DNA from: Paenibacillus azoreducens
GTDB lineage: Bacteria; Bacillota; Bacilli; Paenibacillales; Paenibacillaceae
Direction: 5' to 3'
NCBI RefSeq assembly: GCF_021654775.1
Contig: NZ_AP025343.1
Span: 6,105,501 to 6,169,500 of the forward strand
DNA: 64,000 bases
A program made the position numbers and the translations under genes. The stretch's first letter is position 1; the number at the start of each line of letters is the position of its first letter. Positions 54,217 to 63,641 of the stretch are shown in pieces. The notes under the pieces were generated by a model. The model did not search any database. It was not told the origin of the DNA and saw only the letters and a program-made list of their open reading frames with translations.

Positions 54217-54534
54217 TTATTCTGAGTGCTGCCCGGAATTAGGCTTATTCTGCATACGACCGAACATCAACTCGTAACTGTCGTTGCCGTGATACAGAGA
54301 ACGTTTCACGCGCGAGATGGTTGCTGTGCTTGCTCCCGCCTCGGTTTCAATTTTACTGTACGTGTTATTGTTATAAAGCATTTTGGCAACCTGAAAACGT
54401 TGGAGCAAGGTTTTGATTTCATTCACCGTACATAAATCATCAAAGAAGGCATAACATTCCTCAATCGTTTCTAATGTCAATAAGCCTTCAAAAAATTCGT
54501 CCAATGCTTTACCTTTCAGTTCATCAATAAGCAT
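54217..54534 (-). CDS. YerC/TrpR-superfamily regulator
   Basis: About 105 residues. Contains LDEFFEGLLTLETIEECYAFFDDLCT and the TrpR-like helix-turn-helix YSKIETEAGASTATISRVKRSL, closely following Bacillus YerC. The start at 54534 has GAGGAGG upstream. The sequence is diverged from typical YerC and the gene sits at the end of the tyramine locus, so it may be a local regulator, possibly sensing tyrosine or tryptophan. Downstream of nhaC by 170 bp. Confidence 0.75.
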   Translation of the reverse strand: MLIDELKGKALDEFFEGLLTLETIEECYAFFDDLCTVNEIKTLLQRFQVAKMLYNNNTYSKIETEAGASTATISRVKRSLYHGNDSYELMFGRMQNKPNSGQHSE

Positions 54535-54651
54535 ACGTTGTACCTCCTCAAGTGATGACTGCTCTGAATTTATGTATACCATACTATACCATTATTTTTT
54601 ACTTGCAATTAATTCCATATGCAAAACGCAGAGCGATGTTGTCCTCTGAAC

Positions 54652-54684
54652 GAAAAAAAGCTGGCCAAAAACCAACTTTTTTTC
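54652..54684 (-). terminator. terminator after nhaC
   Basis: AAAGTTGG / CCAGCTTT stem-loop with TTTTTTT on the minus strand, about 20 bases after the nhaC stop. It separates nhaC from the YerC-like gene, so the latter probably has its own promoter. Confidence 0.7.
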
Positions 54685-54705
54685 ATTCAATTACAATCAA
54701 GTTCA

Positions 54706-56088
54706 TCATGCTGCTTTTGAGGATGCCCTCGGTTTTCCTTTTCTGCTCATAAATCCGTACAAGATGTTCAAAAGCGGAGCCGCAATGCAGAAGATCGCAA
54801 ACGGCAGATACTCCAATGTCGATACGCCCAGCGTACCTGTAATAAATACGCCGCTTACCCCCCATGGAATCAGAGCATTGACGGCTGCGCCCGCATTGGC
54901 CACAATTCTTGACATTTCTTTACGTTCAATGTTAATCGCATCATATTGAGACTTAAACGCTTCACCGGGTAAAATAATCGACAAATATTGCTCACCGAGC
55001 AATAAATTGATTCCCATCGAGCTAAGTGCCGTCATCAAAATAAGTTTGCCTTTAGTACTGACAAAGGAAGTGATGCGGGAGATGATGGTTTTGATGATAT
55101 TCAATTCTACAAGCAATCCGCCGAGCGCAAGTGCCAGTAAAATCAGGGACACCGACCACATCATGCTCTGAATGCCGCCGCGTGTCAGCAGCTTGTCCAC
55201 AGTACCGACACCGGTATTAGAAACATAACCGTTTTGCATCAATACCGAGATGTCAGACAAACTGGTATGCGGGTGATAAATGTAAATGACGCCGATGGTA
55301 AATACAATGCTTAACAGTAGTGTTGGAATCGCCGGAATTTTCCTCCATGCGCATAAAAAGAGTACCACTACTGGAATTAGTGTAACAACCGAAATTGGAA
55401 ATGAAGAGCTTAATGTATCGACCAATTGGTTAATTTCCTGCCCCGTCGAGAGCACTTTGGCATGTCCCGCCACACCGAAAAAAATCAGGGAGATGAGAAA
55501 TGCCGGAATAACAACGCGTATCATATAGCGGATATGGTCAAACAAGTCAACTTCAGCAATGGCCGAAGCCAAGTTGGTTGTATCGGATAACGGAGAGATA
55601 TTGTTTCCCAAAAATGCGCCGGAAATGATAGCGCCTGTTACAATGGCAGGATGATAACCCATAATTTGACCCATTCCGAAAAAGGCAATGCCGACGGTCG
55701 AGATCGTTGTAAATGAGCTGCCTACTGTAATTCCTACCACTGTACAAATGACAAACACAGAAGGTAAAAAATATTTAGCGGATAATATGTTGAAACCATA
55801 CACCATAATCGTTTGAATCGTTCCTGCTGCAATCCAGACGCTAATGAGCGCCCCGATCAGCATAAAGATAAGAATAGGAATTAAACCGGGGGAGATTCCT
55901 CCCATTATTCCTTTATGGATACGATCCCAGGAGACCTTTTTGATTTTGGCGAAGATGATAAGAATGCCTAATGAAACTAAGATCGGAATTTGAGGGTCCA
56001 TTCCCAGACCAATGATGCATGCTCCAATAATGGCTAACAAAACGACTAAAAGAAACAGGCTTTCTTTTAAAGTCACTTCTTTATTCAT
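54706..56088 (-). CDS. nhaC: Na+/H+ antiporter, NhaC family
   Basis: 460 residues with about 11-12 membrane helices. Signature regions are VVGITVGSSFTTISTVGIAF, GAFLGNNISPLSDTTNLA and NAGAAVNALIPWGVSG. NhaC members trade sodium for protons, and a homologue closes the tyrosine decarboxylase cluster in enterococci and lactobacilli, where it is thought to support pH homeostasis. It follows pdxK by 86 bases and is probably co-transcribed. AAGGAG site before ATG. Confidence 0.93.
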   Translation of the reverse strand: MNKEVTLKESLFLLVVLLAIIGACIIGLGMDPQIPILVSLGILIIFAKIKKVSWDRIHKGIMGGISPGLIPILIFMLIGALISVWIAAGTIQTIMVYGFNILSAKYFLPSVFVICTVVGITVGSSFTTISTVGIAFFGMGQIMGYHPAIVTGAIISGAFLGNNISPLSDTTNLASAIAEVDLFDHIRYMIRVVIPAFLISLIFFGVAGHAKVLSTGQEINQLVDTLSSSFPISVVTLIPVVVLFLCAWRKIPAIPTLLLSIVFTIGVIYIYHPHTSLSDISVLMQNGYVSNTGVGTVDKLLTRGGIQSMMWSVSLILLALALGGLLVELNIIKTIISRITSFVSTKGKLILMTALSSMGINLLLGEQYLSIILPGEAFKSQYDAINIERKEMSRIVANAGAAVNALIPWGVSGVFITGTLGVSTLEYLPFAIFCIAAPLLNILYGFMSRKGKPRASSKAA

Positions 56089-56174
56089 GGCTGAACTCCT
56101 TATCGTGTATTGACCATCTATAGCAAGAAGTCACAATTTCGTGGAATTGAATTATAAGATGGACCAAAGCTGCC

Positions 56175-57008
56175 TCATCTATACTTGTTCATGCGTTGCT
56201 CAGCCTTGTGAAAAGCGCCATGCCAAACCGGTCCTACAAAACGATTAAAAGCAAATCCGCCCGAAATAGCTGCGGTCGTGAATTCCTTTGCCTTGCTGAC
56301 TGCGGTTTTGACGGTCATTCCTTGAGCTAATCCGGCAGCGATCGCGGCGGCAAATGTGCAGCCCGCACCATGATTATGATCCGTATCGACTTTATCTGCT
56401 TCATACAACGTAAATTCGGAACCATCAAACAGCAAATCAATCGCCTTCTCTGCCTGAAGCCCTTTGCCGCCTTTAATGACAACGTTCTTAGCTCCAAGAC
56501 TGATGATTTTGCGGGCAGCTTCCTTCATATCGTCAATGGTGCTGACTTTCGCAATTCCCGCAAGCTGACCTGCTTCAAACAAATTCGGTGTCGCAATGGT
56601 GGCCCGGGGCAGCAGCAACTCTCGAATAGCTTGCCCATTTTCAGGTTGAACGACTTCGTTTTCGCCTTTGCATACCATAACCGGATCGATCACGATATTT
56701 TCGATTTCATTTTGATCGATGATGGTACTTAAAAGTTCGATCACTTTAACAGATCCAAGCATTCCGGTTTTTAATGCATCCAACTTACCGCCGGATAAAA
56801 CCGTTTTAATTTGTTTGTATACAAGTTCCGGATTTATCGGCTCCACTTCATGATGCCAGTTCTTGTCTTCATCCATGGTTACAATCGAGGTAATGGCACA
56901 AAAACCAAAGGTTCCATACTCCTCAAATGTTTTTAGATCAGCCTCTAGGCCAGCGCCACCGCTTGAATCCGAACCTGCAACCGTAAGCACTTTTTTAATC
57001 TCGGACAT
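56175..57008 (-). CDS. pdxK: pyridoxal/pyridoxine kinase, PdxK
   Basis: 277 residues of the ThiD-like ribokinase type. Motifs: VAGSDSSGGAGLEADLKTF, DALKTGMLGS, NIVIDPVMVCKGENEV, TPNLFEA and the catalytic HGAGCTF. The pattern follows Bacillus PdxK rather than ThiD. It makes pyridoxal phosphate, the cofactor of the tyrosine decarboxylase encoded directly upstream. This pairing is not part of the standard four-gene cluster of lactic acid bacteria. An AAGGAG site precedes the ATG. Confidence 0.88.
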   Translation of the reverse strand: MSEIKKVLTVAGSDSSGGAGLEADLKTFEEYGTFGFCAITSIVTMDEDKNWHHEVEPINPELVYKQIKTVLSGGKLDALKTGMLGSVKVIELLSTIIDQNEIENIVIDPVMVCKGENEVVQPENGQAIRELLLPRATIATPNLFEAGQLAGIAKVSTIDDMKEAARKIISLGAKNVVIKGGKGLQAEKAIDLLFDGSEFTLYEADKVDTDHNHGAGCTFAAAIAAGLAQGMTVKTAVSKAKEFTTAAISGGFAFNRFVGPVWHGAFHKAEQRMNKYR

Positions 57009-57036
57009 GTCAGAAACACTCCTTAAGGGAAAAGAG

Positions 57037-57074
57037 GAATGCGTAACATCCAGCTCATCCGGTGTTACGCATTT
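57037..57074 (-). terminator. hairpin between tyrDC and pdxK
   Basis: AATGCGTAACA / TGTTACGCATT with a 14-base loop and a CTCTTTTCCC run on the minus strand. It could be a partial terminator lowering pdxK and nhaC expression relative to the decarboxylase. Confidence 0.7.
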
Positions 57075-57112
57075 CCCTATTTTTGTTGATTATTAATGGT
57101 TGTTTGCTGGTA

Positions 57113-58990
57113 TTATTCGTTCATTTCGTACATGTAGATTTTTTCAAGTTTTTCTTGCATTGCTTTTTCAATTTTCTCTGCATATTCTTCGAAAGTTGCA
57201 GCGTCATGCGCATACGGAGACAGTGCACAAGCGCGAAGGATAGTGACTTTGCCGGCACGATCCCATTCTTGGTCGGTAAATCCGAGGCTCTTCACGAATT
57301 CCAGCGGGCTGTTGCCATAATCCGGAATAGCGAAGTCCGTATGGGAAGTAATAAATTCATTGCTGTACAGACCGCCTTTGACATAAGAAGCATAATCGAA
57401 GAAGTCATGGTTCAATTTGTTCATTCTCACCAGATCGGTGTTTCCTTCTTCATTAAAGACATAGTCAACCATATTGAAGTCTGGTTTGGTCAATGGATGA
57501 AGCTCAATGATTCTGCCATCGACATTGAATTTCTTGTTCTTCAAGAAATTGTAGAAGCGGTATGCGCCTTCGATGCTGGCACCCATCAATTTACCGAAAC
57601 CTGTAACGTTCAGCGGCAATACTTTATGGGCTGTCCATACAGCGGCTGCCGTTGCGCCGGCTTTGGAACCTTCAAGGATATAAGCACCAAGCAGTGCAGG
57701 AATATCCGCGCCTTTTTCGAATACATAAGTTGCGAAGTAAGAAATCGATTCGCGCATTCTGATGTCGCGGATCGCAATCGCACCAGCAGAGTAAGGAATG
57801 TAACCCATTTTGTGAGGGTCAATTGTAACGGATTCCGCTTTGCTGATGGCTTTGAAGGCATTGTAGATATCCTCAGTCAGCCATTCGTCTTTCAGCTTCA
57901 TATCTGTAAAGATATTGTATTTTTTATATACTTCATCGATTTTGTTGTATTCGATAAATTCATCATTTTCATCGAGGAAAATTGCACGTGCGTAACCGCC
58001 ATATGCAGCATCGATGTGAACGTAATAGTAAATGCCTTCTTTAGCAAGTTTTTCACGCAGTTCGATGATTTTATCAATATGGTCAATTTGGCCTTCTTCC
58101 GTACTTCCGACAACACCTACGACGCCGAGAACCGGAATTTTTTGTTCAGCCAATTCGCGAATGCGTTTTTCGAGTTTGTTGATGTCCATACGATATTCGC
58201 TGTCAACATCGATGGCCTCAACTTGATCCAGACCGATGCCGATGATATCGCCGGCTTTCAACCAGGAATAGTGTTTGGTTTGCGGGATGAGCCATTTACC
58301 AAGCTTTTGCAAGTTTTGACCACTACGAGCGGATTTATCTTTAATTTCATCCATTCTGTCAGCGAGTTTTTCCGTGAGTTCCATAATTTCTTCTGTTGAC
58401 ATATTCAGCAATTCCCATTCGGATTTGCCTTCTACATATTCAGGCGCAACTTCTTTGATCGCCAGCGGAAGGGATTTGATGTTACGTGCATACCACAGAC
58501 CTTCCAAGTTGGCGATGGAGCCGTCGGCGCAAATGTGGCCCCAGCTTTCCCCTGCTTTGTAGCTCATCAGTTTAGCAATTTCATGGCCAACTTCTTCTTC
58601 CATTTGCGACGTACCTGGAGAGGATTCATAAGCCACGTTATTGCCGTTCCAAAGCATTGCTGCTGTATAAGCGATGATGGCCGGCATCAAGGTTTCGGAG
58701 TTCATATGTCCCCAGAAACGGCCTGCGCTATGCCATGGCAGCGATTCGGAACGAAGTTTGGAAGACAATACGTTAAATACGCTGCGTACATGATCGGCTG
58801 TATCCTGGAAGCTCTTTGAACTTTTATCGAAAGGTGTAATCACTGGCAAGTCTTGCGGTTGATAATTTTGACGCCAGCCTACATGCTCGTCAACGACCTT
58901 GAGCAGAACTTCCTTGAACAGATCGACGTTTTCGCCTTTAGAGCCAAGAAACAATGCTTTTAGGTTAATATCAGGAATTTGATAGTTCAT
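57113..58990 (-). CDS. tyrDC: tyrosine decarboxylase (PLP-dependent)
   Basis: 625 residues, the same size as enterococcal and Lactobacillus TyrDC (about 620-626). N-terminal [10 protein letters not shown] and [17 protein letters not shown] are typical. The PLP pocket has [14 protein letters not shown] and the lysine in [18 protein letters not shown]. It removes CO2 from tyrosine to give tyramine, consuming a proton, which aids acid resistance and can generate membrane potential with the exchanger. GGAGG precedes the ATG. Clear low-GC codon use compared with genes left of 54 kb. Other aromatic amino acids might also be substrates. Confidence 0.93.
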
Positions 58991-59071
58991 TGCTTGAGTA
59001 CCTCCATTTATAAAGAAATGATGAGAAATTATTGTATATAAAAGTTTGTTAGCGAAATTTAGTTTGTGAAA

Positions 59072-60481
59072 TTATTCACTCTTCTTCCAGCTTGGCTTCT
59101 TATATTTGTAGATCAGCAGTGCAATACCAACCATGACAACTGTCGCAACGACCTGGTAAATGACATACCCTGTTGAGAAGCTTGCAGGAAGAATGGATGG
59201 CGGTATTAAGCTGACAATAATCGTGATAACAACACTCAGTAAGGATAACAATGCTACGAACCACATCAATCCATTACCTTTATTGCCAAGACGGAATGGT
59301 CTTTCCATATCAGGCGATTTATAACGCAGACGCACGGCGGAAATGGCGATCAGCGCATATACGATACAGTATAGAATCGTTGTTGTAATCGTGATGACCA
59401 AGAAAGCACTGTTAACGTCAGGAACAACGATATACATGACGGAAACCAAGGAAATAACAATCGCTTGGATCAATACGAAGGAAATCGGAATTCCTTTGCT
59501 GTTTCTCTTTTGGAAGAATGGCGGCAAGTTACCGTCTTCTGCGACTTTAATCATCGACTTACTTGGACCAAGTACCCATGCGCTAAGCTGAACAAGAACA
59601 CCGATCAAGATCATCGCGGAAATAATGTTAACGAAAATGGATGGAATACCTAAGTTTTCACAGAAAATCATATATGGCTGCGTAATGTTCGAAAGTTCCA
59701 TTTTGCCCATTGGAACACCGTTCGCAACCGTCAAACCCGCAATCAGGTTGAAAATGACCAGCAGGATTACGGAAGCAATAACCGCAATCGGATAGTTGCG
59801 TTTCGGATTTTCAATATTGTTCGCGTGCACTGAGGAAATCTCAACACCAGCGAAGATAAAGATGATACCGGATAAATAAGCCAAGCTTCCCAAGTCACCA
59901 AGGTTTGGCAGGAGGTCGCCTGCTTTAAAGTTTGCCAAGTAGCCGCTTGGATTAATGCCGTTTTTGATCATATAAGCGACACCAAGCACCACCAGAACAA
60001 CAAAGGGAATATATACCCCGATAATCGAACCCCAGTTACCGGCAATTTTGACCATATCGAACTTCAAGTTCAATAGGGTTACGCCCCAGTAAGAAATGAG
60101 AATGACTGCAAATATAAAGAAGTTATTTGAAGATAAATGTGGAACATTAATTACATAACCGAACAGTACGCCTACAGTCGAAGCAACCATAACCATACCG
60201 AAAAACATTTGGACCCATAAGAGCCACGAGGTTACGAACCCCCATTTTTCCCCCAACGCTTTTTTAACCCAGACTTGCGGGCCACCCTCTTCAGGGAATC
60301 CCGTTGACAGTTCAGCGGACATCAATGCAATCGGAAGTGCAAACAGAATAGCTGCAACCAGCATGTAGAAAATTTGTGTCCAACCGGTAATGGCTAGCGT
60401 TGGCACGCTACGTACAGTACCGAAGAATGCCATCGTGATCCCAATTAACCCGAATAGAGTTAATTTTTTTGAATTGGCCAT
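59072..60481 (-). CDS. tyrP: tyrosine/tyramine antiporter, APC family
   Basis: 469 residues, 12 membrane helices. Typical of glutamate/GABA-like antiporters: FGLIGITMAFFGTVRSVPT, ELSTGFPEEGGPQVWVKKALG, FIFAGVEISSVHANNIENPKRNYP. By position beside tyrDC and TyrP-type residues it should exchange extracellular tyrosine for intracellular tyramine. Starts with AAGGGAG. Its gene opens the decarboxylation operon, about 80 bp before tyrDC. Confidence 0.9.
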   Translation of the reverse strand: MANSKKLTLFGLIGITMAFFGTVRSVPTLAITGWTQIFYMLVAAILFALPIALMSAELSTGFPEEGGPQVWVKKALGEKWGFVTSWLLWVQMFFGMVMVASTVGVLFGYVINVPHLSSNNFFIFAVILISYWGVTLLNLKFDMVKIAGNWGSIIGVYIPFVVLVVLGVAYMIKNGINPSGYLANFKAGDLLPNLGDLGSLAYLSGIIFIFAGVEISSVHANNIENPKRNYPIAVIASVILLVIFNLIAGLTVANGVPMGKMELSNITQPYMIFCENLGIPSIFVNIISAMILIGVLVQLSAWVLGPSKSMIKVAEDGNLPPFFQKRNSKGIPISFVLIQAIVISLVSVMYIVVPDVNSAFLVITITTTILYCIVYALIAISAVRLRYKSPDMERPFRLGNKGNGLMWFVALLSLLSVVITIIVSLIPPSILPASFSTGYVIYQVVATVVMVGIALLIYKYKKPSWKKSE

Positions 60482-60623
60482 AAAGTCTCCCTTCTTTCTC
60501 TCTATTTATCTATCTTTCTAATGCATCCAGAATATGAATAAAACATGAATTAAAATGATTTTGGATACATTCGAAATTCTGAAAATAATATCACCTTTTC
60601 AAGGCGAAGGATGAAATGAATTT

Positions 60624-60637
60624 GTTAATCGATTAAC
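60624..60637. promoter_or_regulatory. perfect palindrome GTTAATCGATTAAC upstream of tyrP
   Basis: A 14-bp perfect palindrome about 145 bp before the tyrP start. The tract between it and tyrP is A/T-rich and could hold the promoter. It is a candidate operator for a regulator of the tyramine operon. It does not match a CcpA cre by spacing. Confidence 0.5.
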
Positions 60638-60685
60638 TTTCACCGCAAGTATACGCCTTGTTTTTTTGTTGTGTCAATTTGGTTC

Positions 60686-60708
60686 AAAACCTTGTCACAT
60701 AAGGTTTT
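60686..60708. terminator. inverted repeat AAAACCTT-7-AAGGTTTT
   Basis: Perfect eight-base arms with T-rich flanks on the plus strand, resembling a terminator for plus-strand transcription or part of a plasmid control region. No plus-strand gene precedes it. Confidence 0.5.
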
Positions 60709-61209
60709 TTTGGTTTTTTCCATAATCTTATTAATAAATACTTTAAAGGTTTTACTACTTCACCGATGAAGGCTTTAAATGATTTACGCTTTTATGGGTT
60801 GAAGCATTTTCAGGGAAAAGTTATGAATATTAATTTATAAAAGTGGATATTTATATATTGATGCCAGTTGATATTTTTAACTTAAAAGATGATGTATTTG
60901 ATCTGCAACCACTCCTTTACGAATGAAAAAATCGGGACATGCCAGTGATTTATGGATGGGGGCACGTTAACTTTATGATGGCTTGTGCAATTACATCTTA
61001 TGAGTGCACATTCTCCCAAGCTGAGGAATGAAGTGGAAGCTCGAGGATAAATTCACGAAAAAGAATAGTTATACGCGAGGAGAAATGAACGCCTTACTTG
61101 GAAGGCCCTGAAATCGCTTTTACAAAAAAAGCAATATCAATCTTGGTTTCTAGTATTTTGCAATTTGTCAAAATTCCGGTGTCGATAAAAAAAGGAAAAA
61201 TAAAACAAT

Positions 61210-61255
61210 AAAAGCCGGTTTTCAGCTGTCTTTCCAGCTTGAAAATCGGCTTTTT
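61210..61255 (-). terminator. terminator after the rep remnant
   Basis: AAAGCCGATTTTCAAGCTGG / CAGCTGAAAACCGGCTTT pairing with few mismatches, followed on the minus strand by T-rich sequence. Stops transcription from tyrS/rep before tyrP. Confidence 0.85.
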
Positions 61256-61296
61256 CGTAACAATCTTTTCACGTAAATTGTGATAAAAATCATAGA

Positions 61297-61992
61297 TTAC
61301 GAAACGGAATGGAGCGGATCATTGCCTTGTTTCCTGACTCCCGGATACCAGTGCAGCATGCTTTTGAAGGCACAGTTGGCAATATCATCATGTATGTCAT
61401 ATTGATTAATATTATATTCAATTTCTGGAAGCAAACGATCCGTCTCTTTTTTTAATAATCTACTATATCCAATCAGTCTGCGTGAAGCAAGTTTTGTATC
61501 ATGATTTGGAATGCGATCCGGTTCATCATGAAGCTTAATTAAAAATTGTTCCATTTTGCAGGCTGCTTCCTGCTGATCGCATCTTCCATTCAGCACATTC
61601 ACCTTTACGGATAATCGATTTTCAGGATCCATGTCAAGCGCTTTGTGCCAAAGAGCCAACCATTCATCATATTTGATGTAATATCTCCCCTGAAAATAAC
61701 TTTTGATTGTCGGCAGTAAGATATGGATGGTCGGGTGATAGACATCTTCGTCTTTTTGGATATCCAACATCCGAAAATAACCAAGCGTTGCTTGTTTAAC
61801 CCGTTTATACTTAAATAATCGGTTAAAGCCGATTAACATCCGGTCAAGTTCTTCATTAATATGTGCGTCGGCAACTTCTCTTAGCCCTAAATCAACCGTA
61901 AGCCAGTTAACCTGCTTAACCCGATTTACTTCCGATATTAAACGATGATTAAAAAATGCAAGCTGTAGCGACCGTCTCCACGAACCAAGCAT
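61297..61992 (-). pseudogene. truncated rolling-circle plasmid replication protein
   Basis: 231 residues similar to Rep proteins of pUB110/pC194-type plasmids: GSWRRSLQLAFFNHRLISEV corresponds to the usual CAWRRSL segment; LIGFNRLFKYKRVKQATLGYFR, VYHPTIHILLPTIKSYFQGR, YIKYDEWLALWHKALDMD and RRLIGYSRLLKKET follow in the normal order. The N-terminal 50-100 residues are missing. The zinc-type cysteines (CPMC) are lost, and the metal-binding HUH motif reads TIH instead of HFH. It should therefore be inactive. It still has a GGAGG site and lies only 46 bp after tyrS. Confidence 0.82.
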
Positions 61993-62038
61993 CTTTAATC
62001 CTCGCCTCCATTTCTAAAAGAGAATAGCTGATAATCAG

Positions 62039-63304
62039 CTATTCTCCGAGTTTCACGAGGTTGTAATTCTTTTTGCCTTTACGAACGATGATAAAGCGGC
62101 CGTCGAAGGAGTTCTCGGTTGTTACGACCATATCCAGATCGGTTACCTTGTCTCCATTTAATGCAATGGCTCCATTGGTGATATCCTCACGCGCTTGACG
62201 CTTGGATGGTTCGATTCCCAAATCAACCAGCCAGTCCACGATGTTTTTGGATTCCTTGGAAGCTTGGAATGTAGGCATTTCTTTGAAGCCTTGTTCGATT
62301 TCGTCAGCTGTCAGCGCCTTGATATCGCCGCTAAACAACGCTTCGGTAATCTTCTTGGCTTGGGCCAGCGCTTCTTCGCCATGTACGAATTTCGTCATTT
62401 CTTCAGCAAGGACCCGCTGCGCTTCACGTTTATGAGGTTCGGTCTGGACCTTCACTTCGAGTGCGTCGATTTCTTCTTTCGTCAAGAACGTGAAGAATTT
62501 CAGGTATTTGATGACATCCCGGTCATCCTGGTTTGCCCAGAACTGGAAGAATTCGAAAGGAGTCGTCTTTTTCGGATCGAGCCAGATGGCGCCGCCTGCC
62601 GTTTTACCGAATTTGGTACCGTCAGCTTTCAGCATCAAAGGAATCGTCAAACCAAAGGCTTTCGCTTCTGAACCTTCTTTTTTACGAATCAAGTCCAGAC
62701 CGGCTGTAATGTTGCCCCATTGATCGGCGCCGCCAATTTGCAATTGAACGTCTTCATGTTTGAACAAATGAAGGAAGTCGATCGACTGAAGAATCTGGTA
62801 CGAGAACTCTGTAAAGGAAATACCCGAATCCAGACGGCTAGCTACAATATCTTTGGCAAGCATCGTATTGACGCTAAAGTTTTTACCGAAATCGCGAAGG
62901 AAATCCAAGATGGTCAGGTCCTTCGTCCAATCGTAGTTGTTCACCATGCGAAGACCTGTATCTCCTTCATTAAGAAACAGTTTCTTCATTTGTGCTGTCA
63001 GTGCATCCACATTCTTTTGCACTTGGTCCATGGTTTGCAGAGTACGTTCTGATGTACGTCCGCTTGGATCACCGATGGTGCCGGTTGCCCCGCCAATCAG
63101 GATTACCGGGCGATGTCCGGCCATCTGGAATCTTTTCAACATCATAAATGGAATCAAGTGGCCAATATGCATGCTGTCACCGGTTGGGTCAACTCCACAG
63201 TACAATGAAATCGACTTCTCGGAAGTAAGTTTACGTAGTCCTTCTGCATCTGTTTGTTGGTTAATCGCGCCGCGCCATTCGAGCTCGTCGATAATGTTCA
63301 TCAT
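62039..63304 (-). CDS. tyrS: tyrosyl-tRNA synthetase
   Basis: 421 residues. Class I motifs: HIGHL near residue 48 and KFGKT (the KMSKS equivalent) near 233; GGADQWGN and YCGVDPTGDS bind tyrosine. A C-terminal S4-like domain ends in KKNYNLVKLGE. It charges tRNA-Tyr. It is preceded by a tyrosine T-box and a good SigA promoter. In the tyramine clusters of lactic acid bacteria a dedicated tyrS also comes first. GAGGAG precedes the ATG. Confidence 0.96.
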   Translation of the reverse strand: MMNIIDELEWRGAINQQTDAEGLRKLTSEKSISLYCGVDPTGDSMHIGHLIPFMMLKRFQMAGHRPVILIGGATGTIGDPSGRTSERTLQTMDQVQKNVDALTAQMKKLFLNEGDTGLRMVNNYDWTKDLTILDFLRDFGKNFSVNTMLAKDIVASRLDSGISFTEFSYQILQSIDFLHLFKHEDVQLQIGGADQWGNITAGLDLIRKKEGSEAKAFGLTIPLMLKADGTKFGKTAGGAIWLDPKKTTPFEFFQFWANQDDRDVIKYLKFFTFLTKEEIDALEVKVQTEPHKREAQRVLAEEMTKFVHGEEALAQAKKITEALFSGDIKALTADEIEQGFKEMPTFQASKESKNIVDWLVDLGIEPSKRQAREDITNGAIALNGDKVTDLDMVVTTENSFDGRFIIVRKGKKNYNLVKLGE

Positions 63305-63343: not shown

Positions 63344-63600
63344 AAAAAATCGTCTCCTTGTCTATTCTAGACATAGGGACGATTTATTAACCGTGTTACC
63401 ACCCAAATTGCATTAACGGCGCTGCAGCCGCCATTAACACCACTCTCGGCAATGATATCGATTGCCAATCCGCTTAGCGTTACCTAAGATCCTCCAGAGT
63501 GTACTTCGCAATGTTTGTGTGTACCGGGTCTCATCAACCCCCGGCTTTCTGAAACAGTGACAAAATCGCTACTGCGCTCCTTCATTGTGCCATCCAATAT
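63344..63600 (-). promoter_or_regulatory. tyrosine T-box riboswitch
   Basis: On the minus strand the leader starts AAGGAGCGCAGTAGCGA (about 63566-63582). The specifier is TAC (revcomp of 63501-63503) in GCGAAGTACACTC. The T-box is GGGTGGTAACACGG (63391-63404). The terminator AATCGTCCCTATGTC / GACAAGGAGACGATT with a T-run lies at 63344-63385. Uncharged tRNA-Tyr would stabilise the antiterminator and allow tyrS expression. Confidence 0.95.
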
Positions 63601-63612
63601 TAGATTAATGCC

Positions 63613-63641
63613 ATCATAGTGCGTATAAAATCCTTTGTCAA
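63613..63641 (-). promoter_or_regulatory. SigA promoter of tyrS
   Basis: TTGACA (63641-63636) and TATGAT (63618-63613), 17 bp apart, close to consensus and directly ahead of the T-box leader. Confidence 0.9.

Follow-up and report, generated by a model that had tools for sequence, protein, structure and literature searches.

Tyramine is relevant to food safety and to host-associated bacteria, and the enzymes of its clusters import tyrosine, decarboxylate it in a reaction dependent on pyridoxal phosphate (PLP) and export the resulting amine. The tyrosine decarboxylase (TDC) cluster of Enterococcus and the Lactobacillaceae contains a T-box-led tyrS, tyrDC, tyrP and nhaC, with tyrDC ahead of tyrP. 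The extracts of PMC3315439 on E. durans describe a T box with a UAC specifier before tyrS and, at acidic pH, an increase of tyrS by more than 10-fold in the absence of tyrosine, whose effect is exerted via the T box. A related tdcP-tdcA-tyrT cluster accompanied by a hisR2 paralogue is described in the extracts of Ashniev et al. 2022 (PMC9413887) for Paenibacillus alvei, Carnobacterium and three Enterococcus species, with sites predicted upstream of tdcP. The locus described here lies on the minus strand, at 54217-63304, of a 64,000-nucleotide stretch of Paenibacillus azoreducens DNA (contig NZ_AP025343.1, positions 6,105,501 to 6,169,500; hereafter the window). It shares the T-box-led tyrS, tyrDC, tyrP and nhaC with the TDC cluster but has the order tyrP-tyrDC and carries in addition pdxK, yerC/hisR2, a gene resembling those of rolling-circle replication initiators (Rep) and a plasmid-like promoter, so that its 5' to 3' order is T-box leader, tyrS, Rep_1 gene, promoter-like site, palindrome, tyrP, tyrDC, pdxK, nhaC and yerC. 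An earlier account made from the letters and open reading frames of the window (the sequence-only reading) had recognised the tyramine cluster, and that observation stands. Its emphasis on pdxK does not, and it overlooked the most unusual gene, that of the Rep_1 family, together with the tyrP promoter and a 14-bp palindrome within the same coordinates and the T box just outside them.

The Rep_1 gene (61297-61992, minus strand) has 231 codons, matches PF01446 with 102.8 bits (cut-off 33.2) and encodes a protein about 35-38% identical to its nearest Bacillus plasmid Reps, taken over the best plasmid rows. We compared it across 51 named loci, each with a gene for a TyrDC relative (L numbers below). 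Because L029 and L057 show one identical rep gene, the linked copies amount to 16 distinct genes, that of the window and 15 others, all of them open frames. Every one of the 16 lacks an N-terminal stretch of approximately 95 residues that includes the Cys motif, and also lacks the HUH His1 and the segment with the catalytic Tyr, while the remainder is largely conserved. By comparison, Cys motif, His1 and catalytic Tyr are all kept in 12/12 plasmid Reps (a thirteenth, with the same protein record as another, was dropped) and in 10/10 unlinked genomic Reps, these being the ones retrieved as loci from 21 genomes with unlinked matches. Set against eight plasmid Reps, the linked copies form one clade with support 100/100. 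The ratio of non-synonymous to synonymous substitution rates (dN/dS) is 0.077-0.181 in the six pairs with finite dS, two of which have dS >2; nine pairs were tried and three were saturated. Among the 41 invariant residues of the Rep-like protein, nine are Lys or Arg and one is acidic, and its AF2 model is confident (pLDDT 86.4, pTM 0.86). It is thus very probable, as judged from the sequences, that a plasmid Rep gene was captured and retained in a catalytically dead form.

Of seven tracked genes, rep is the next one behind tyrS in 16/16 cases, at gaps of 43-366 nt, and a T box stands ahead of that tyrS in all 16; in Virgibacillus and B. chungangensis, whose tyrS-rep pair flanks the cluster from the opposite side, rep still follows tyrS. 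The dead Rep is, as far as its residues and substitution rates indicate, maintained by selection behind tyrS. An order-level search of 392 genomes returned a Rep-like match (E<=1e-10) in nine; all nine belong to the 13 genomes whose TyrDC is 78% identical or more, and each match lies within 2.6 kb of TyrDC (9/13 vs 0/379 genomes; Fisher p=1.3e-15, a value made optimistic by relatedness). Within the genus, 5/7 genomes with TyrDC contain a Rep-like match and 0/93 of the others do, where relatedness likewise makes the p value optimistic. Three further order-level genomes, G325, G344 and G361 of one genus, carry just a distant TyrDC relative (37-38%), an open frame of 742 codons, and lack a Rep-like match. 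A class-level sample of 398 genomes gave two linked copies above 370 bits, and 21 other matching genomes at no more than 168 bits.

The upstream region of tyrP also resembles that of a plasmid gene. In Bacillus plasmids, the stretch before rep presents a nick site, then in most cases AACAAGATTTT or a similar sequence, the imperfect repeat CCTTgTGTGtCAAGG and a -35 box TTGACA. The same series, minus the nick site, precedes tyrP over a likeness of only about 65 nt, in the window at 60667-60725 on the minus strand. A direct scan of the window found no double-strand-origin nick site within 2.6 kb of rep at up to three mismatches. A profile built from 16 tyrP-upstream segments matched the rep promoters of five Bacillus plasmids at 24.7, 23.1, 19.1, 16.5 and 16.1 bits, all in one register, whereas its best match away from tyrP upstream regions in 1.01 Mb (the window and the loci) reached 8.8 bits. 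In the reverse search, from the side of the plasmid rep promoters, 11 of the 13 best matches fell upstream of tyrP, with scores of up to 20.9 bits in relatives; the other two were chance-like matches in Vagococcus. A blastn comparison of L020:7180-7400 with 72,556 plasmids gave 19 weak matches, the best of which (E=0.2) lies 80 nt before the 'protein rep' of B. licheniformis pCR1. Gottfriedia, Neobacillus, Virgibacillus and one copy of B. chungangensis also have this promoter type ahead of tyrP (32-61 bits). Rep accompanies it in 16/21 cases and its absence in 0/5 (Fisher p=0.004, from related sequences that do not make an independent count); this test excludes L029 and L031a, which are promoter-minus copies in rep-bearing loci, as well as Lactobacillales and other non-Bacillales loci. 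From these matches, the promoter stretch before tyrP is probably of plasmid origin. It runs into a conserved tyrP promoter-like site, TTGACA-18-TATACT (60648-60677, minus strand; 11/12 consensus letters), although the promoter scan overall gave a number of sites not above that of shuffled sequences. Upstream of the plasmid-like segment, a further stretch of approximately 95 nt (60826-60730) is also conserved and contains GCTTT-N8-AAAGC and CTTCATCGRTGAAG-like repeats, and the approximately 0.8 kb between the Rep_1 gene and the tyrP promoter region are without a called gene.

We propose, at a probability of roughly one half, that a mini-plasmid was captured, that tyrP-tyrDC now use part of its promoter and that the dead Rep is a probable DNA-binding regulator; this figure and the gradings in words throughout are our judgements and were not computed. 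In such a scheme, the tyrS-tyrP gap of a tyramine cluster would have taken up a Bacillus-type rolling-circle mini-plasmid whose circle was opened inside the 5' portion of rep, giving tyrS, truncated rep, the plasmid remainder, the rep promoter and tyrP in succession. Opening at this place would explain both the missing N terminus and the promoter. The dead Rep may still bind DNA and control the tyrP-tyrDC-pdxK-nhaC unit. Made together with tyrS when tRNA-Tyr is uncharged, by way of the T box, it would repress tyrosine decarboxylation and spare tyrosine for protein synthesis; if rep is read with tyrS it is made when tyrosine is scarce, and repression of decarboxylation is therefore its most sensible role. 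HisR2 (YerC) could be a second regulator acting at the palindrome, and pdxK may add PLP cofactor supply for the decarboxylation. For a regulatory role of the Rep-like protein in tyramine production, taken by itself, we see the chances as evenly balanced. Rather more tentatively, the whole could be a replicon exapted as a switch, in which a nuclease-dead Rep under a tRNA-Tyr T box acts on the former rep promoter that drives tyrosine decarboxylation, initiator and origin having become regulator and operator.

The evidence that weighs against a regulator is not small. Four clusters without rep (L014, L019, L026 and L027) keep the promoter type, and L024 holds only a remnant of rep. By eye, the CCTT..AAGG repeat is kept in the rep-less L014, L026 and L027 and is degenerate in the rep-bearing L012, L021, L023 and L062, and the repeat and the rep gene therefore do not consistently co-occur. 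Neither the nick site of the plasmids nor the 5' portion of rep was recovered beside tyrP, and the profiles do not extend into the nick site in any locus. The reverse search gives the window's own segment 9.2 bits, less than the 13.5 bits reached by a chance-like match in Vagococcus, and the 11/13 reverse matches are not independent because the tyrP regions are related. Between tyrS and rep, the window (62021-62045, minus strand) and several relatives have a terminator-like hairpin, in the window identified from sequence and fold and followed by a short T run, in L017 by eight T, which leaves joint transcription of tyrS and rep unproven. Furthermore, Rep distances track those of tyrDC (r=0.62) and pdxK (r=0.59), and only weakly those of nhaC (r=0.30, p=0.026), yerC (r=0.26, p=0.069), tyrS (r=0.22, p=0.065) and tyrP (r=0.15, p=0.12), and the promoter type is not a single clade on the TyrDC tree.

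Part of this evidence would fit other explanations. Four clusters that share the promoter type have no rep and a fifth has a remnant, as would be expected if the gene had simply come along with an earlier plasmid insertion and the interest lay, as in the sequence-only reading, in the pdxK-containing cluster; we consider this passenger explanation improbable, given an open frame in 16 copies, dN/dS values well below one in six pairs, a pdxK insertion common to 19/51 loci and a paralogue 61% identical elsewhere in the genome. Somewhat less improbable, but still unlikely, is that only rep derives from a plasmid and that the tyrP promoter came to resemble it by convergence on AT-rich sigma-A promoters. 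The shortness of the homology, the low score in the window, the chance-like matches of up to 13.5 bits and the blastn E value all speak for this. The forward profile, with 16-25 bits at the plasmid sites and at most 8.8 bits away from tyrP, speaks against it, as does the identical register in all five plasmids.

The remaining explanations accept a selected Rep and place its action elsewhere. A DNA-binding Rep without nicking residues could block the replication of related rolling-circle plasmids entering the cell by occupying their origins, its location in the cluster being historical, and the closest kin of the protein are indeed Bacillus plasmid Reps. A defence gene would, however, be expected elsewhere too, and the tie to tyramine clusters is strict, with none among the 379 order-level genomes without a close TyrDC, so that we hold this doubtful. 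Alternatively, the constant place of rep behind tyrS, even where both have moved to the other side of the cluster, might mean that the protein acts with the tyrosyl-tRNA synthetase (TyrRS) or on RNA, such as tRNA or the tyrS leader, and not on the tyrP promoter. The distance correlation with tyrS is weak, and what is known of the family suggests DNA as the target; we accord this explanation as little weight as the passenger. A captured mini-plasmid with a regulatory Rep remains our preferred reading.

Gene-family assignments support the cluster around these elements, and tyramine formation itself is predicted. The genes were identified with curated NCBIfam models and their cut-offs, and the Rep-like gene with PF01446. 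The genes tyrS, tyrP, tyrDC, pdxK, nhaC and yerC are intact minus-strand open reading frames at 54217-63304. Matching the sequence-only reading, tyrS (62039-63304; TIGR00234, 432.9 bits, cut-off 113.8), tyrP for the tyrosine-tyramine antiporter (59072-60481; NF040513, 797.7 bits, cut-off 630), tyrDC (57113-58990; TIGR03811 equivalog, 1145.1 bits, cut-off 905.3) and nhaC (54706-56088; TIGR00931, 401.7 bits, cut-off 370) are all present, with the pdxK-type gene between tyrDC and nhaC and yerC next. The higher A/T content that it reported in comparison with the DNA left of 54 kb was likewise recovered, G+C in 2-kb bins being 38-45% at 54-64 kb and 43-55% to the left. TyrDC aligns along its length with the solved enzymes 7cwx and 5hsi and retains the DPHK lysine, a position occupied by Ala in entry 7cwz. 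The T-box leader (63372-63594, minus strand; RF00230, 102.7 bits, gathering 93) has GAAGUACACUCUGGAG as its specifier region, which by our own placement is consistent with UAC, for tyrosine, and is preceded by a promoter-like site TTGACA-17-TATGAT (63613-63641, minus strand) with 11/12 consensus letters. The window tyrS is the sole TyrRS gene in the genome above the TIGR00234 cut-off, two other places falling below it, and it sits in the cluster although TyrDC is patchy across the genus. Terminator-like hairpins lie 3' of the Rep-like gene (61207-61254) and 3' of nhaC (54648-54688), both on the minus strand and assigned by fold with ends set by eye.

The inserted pdxK (56175-57008) had been presented as the key novelty, a case which is weakened by its distribution: 19/51 loci have pdxK within 600 bp downstream of tyrDC, including those of Gottfriedia, Virgibacillus, Bacillus chungangensis and Isobaculum, the last (L036) being the only one among 23 Lactobacillales loci. 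A search of the open-licence PMC literature found no paper on pdxK in a tyramine cluster by title or abstract. With one tyrDC taken per locus and matches accepted from 40% identity and 45% coverage upwards, tyrP is found no more than 9 kb from tyrDC in 50 of the 51, tyrS in 49, nhaC in 47, yerC in 29, pdxK in 21 and rep in 16; some of the loci are cut off by the end of a contig. The gene order is not one common to all relatives, as the decarboxylase occurs in 7/100 genomes of the genus, that of the window counted; the cluster is shared with a scattered set of relatives. The product is a PdxK/ThiD-family kinase, with 2i5b as its closest solved relative by sequence, and because it scores below the cut-off of the PdxK model NF009077 (360 bits, cut-off 385) and above that of the HMP-P kinase model TIGR00097 (257.8 bits, cut-off 204.95), the name is likely rather than proven. 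The description of a complete tyramine cluster with pdxK and a YerC regulator thus holds for the gene families, with that reserve on the name. The genome also encodes a PdxK-like paralogue (61% identity) and a ThiD-like gene (39%), and any supply from the cluster gene would therefore be extra and not the sole one.

Between tyrDC and pdxK lies a hairpin (57036-57077, minus strand; from the fold, ends set by eye) whose arms, like GAATGCGTAAC/GTTACGCATTC, recur by eye in 14/15 Paenibacillus rows, L034 being more diverged, out of 19 rows folded in all. In the window it has only a short T run and may therefore dampen transcription into pdxK instead of blocking it; a tuning of pdxK level is possible. 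Several genomes contain two tyrDC copies (L012/L018, L023/L022, L031, L028/L032, L024/L033, L029/L057), of which one has the plasmid-type promoter and the other, which is simpler, lacks it; the latter may have another substrate or control.

The regulator gene yerC/hisR2 (54217-54582, minus strand; TIGR02531, 139.5 bits, cut-off 42.2) belongs to the TrpR family and is one of two yerC genes in the genome, the other being 56% identical. Its candidate operator is the perfect 14-bp palindrome GTTAATCGATTAAC (60624-60637), whose form GTTA-n6-TAAC has the same spacing as, and arms similar to, the HisR consensus TTTA-n6-TAAA given in the extracts of PMC9413887. It is exact in 16/52 sequences (the window and the 51 loci) and present with one mismatch in L019, all of them Paenibacillus, and was not found before tyrP in the Bacillaceae loci nor in L018, L022 and L035. 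The 7.3-Mb genome contains it once at up to one mismatch, as it does a control pattern.

A yerC-type regulator in such clusters is already known in outline from the hisR2-tdcP-tdcA-tyrT clusters, which likewise place a second yerC/hisR copy beside a tyrosine/tyramine exchanger and a decarboxylase; the running text of PMC9413887 contains neither 'pdxK' nor 'rep gene', both of which are present here. To the Rep_1 initiators of the pTA1060/pUB110/pC194 type, treated in the extracts of PMC5714925, the Rep-like protein is related by its family match and 35-38% identity to the best plasmid rows, but it differs from them in all 16 copies by the loss of the N-terminal residues, His1 and catalytic Tyr. 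A search of open-licence PMC literature, including the extracts of a review on the recruitment of mobile genetic elements (PMC8987985), returned no case in which selection has retained a rolling-circle plasmid initiator, along with a piece of the promoter it once had, inside a metabolic operon.

Domesticated mobile-element proteins as such are already known. The TldR proteins descend from TnpB. As nuclease-dead transcription factors of TnpB type, described in the extracts of PMC13418256, they offer a parallel in which a mobile-element nuclease turned regulator, but they belong to another protein family, and regulation by the Rep-like protein is here inferred. If that inference is correct, tRNA charging would be linked to tyramine production via a captured replicon, and the locus would offer a test case for replication initiators becoming transcription factors.

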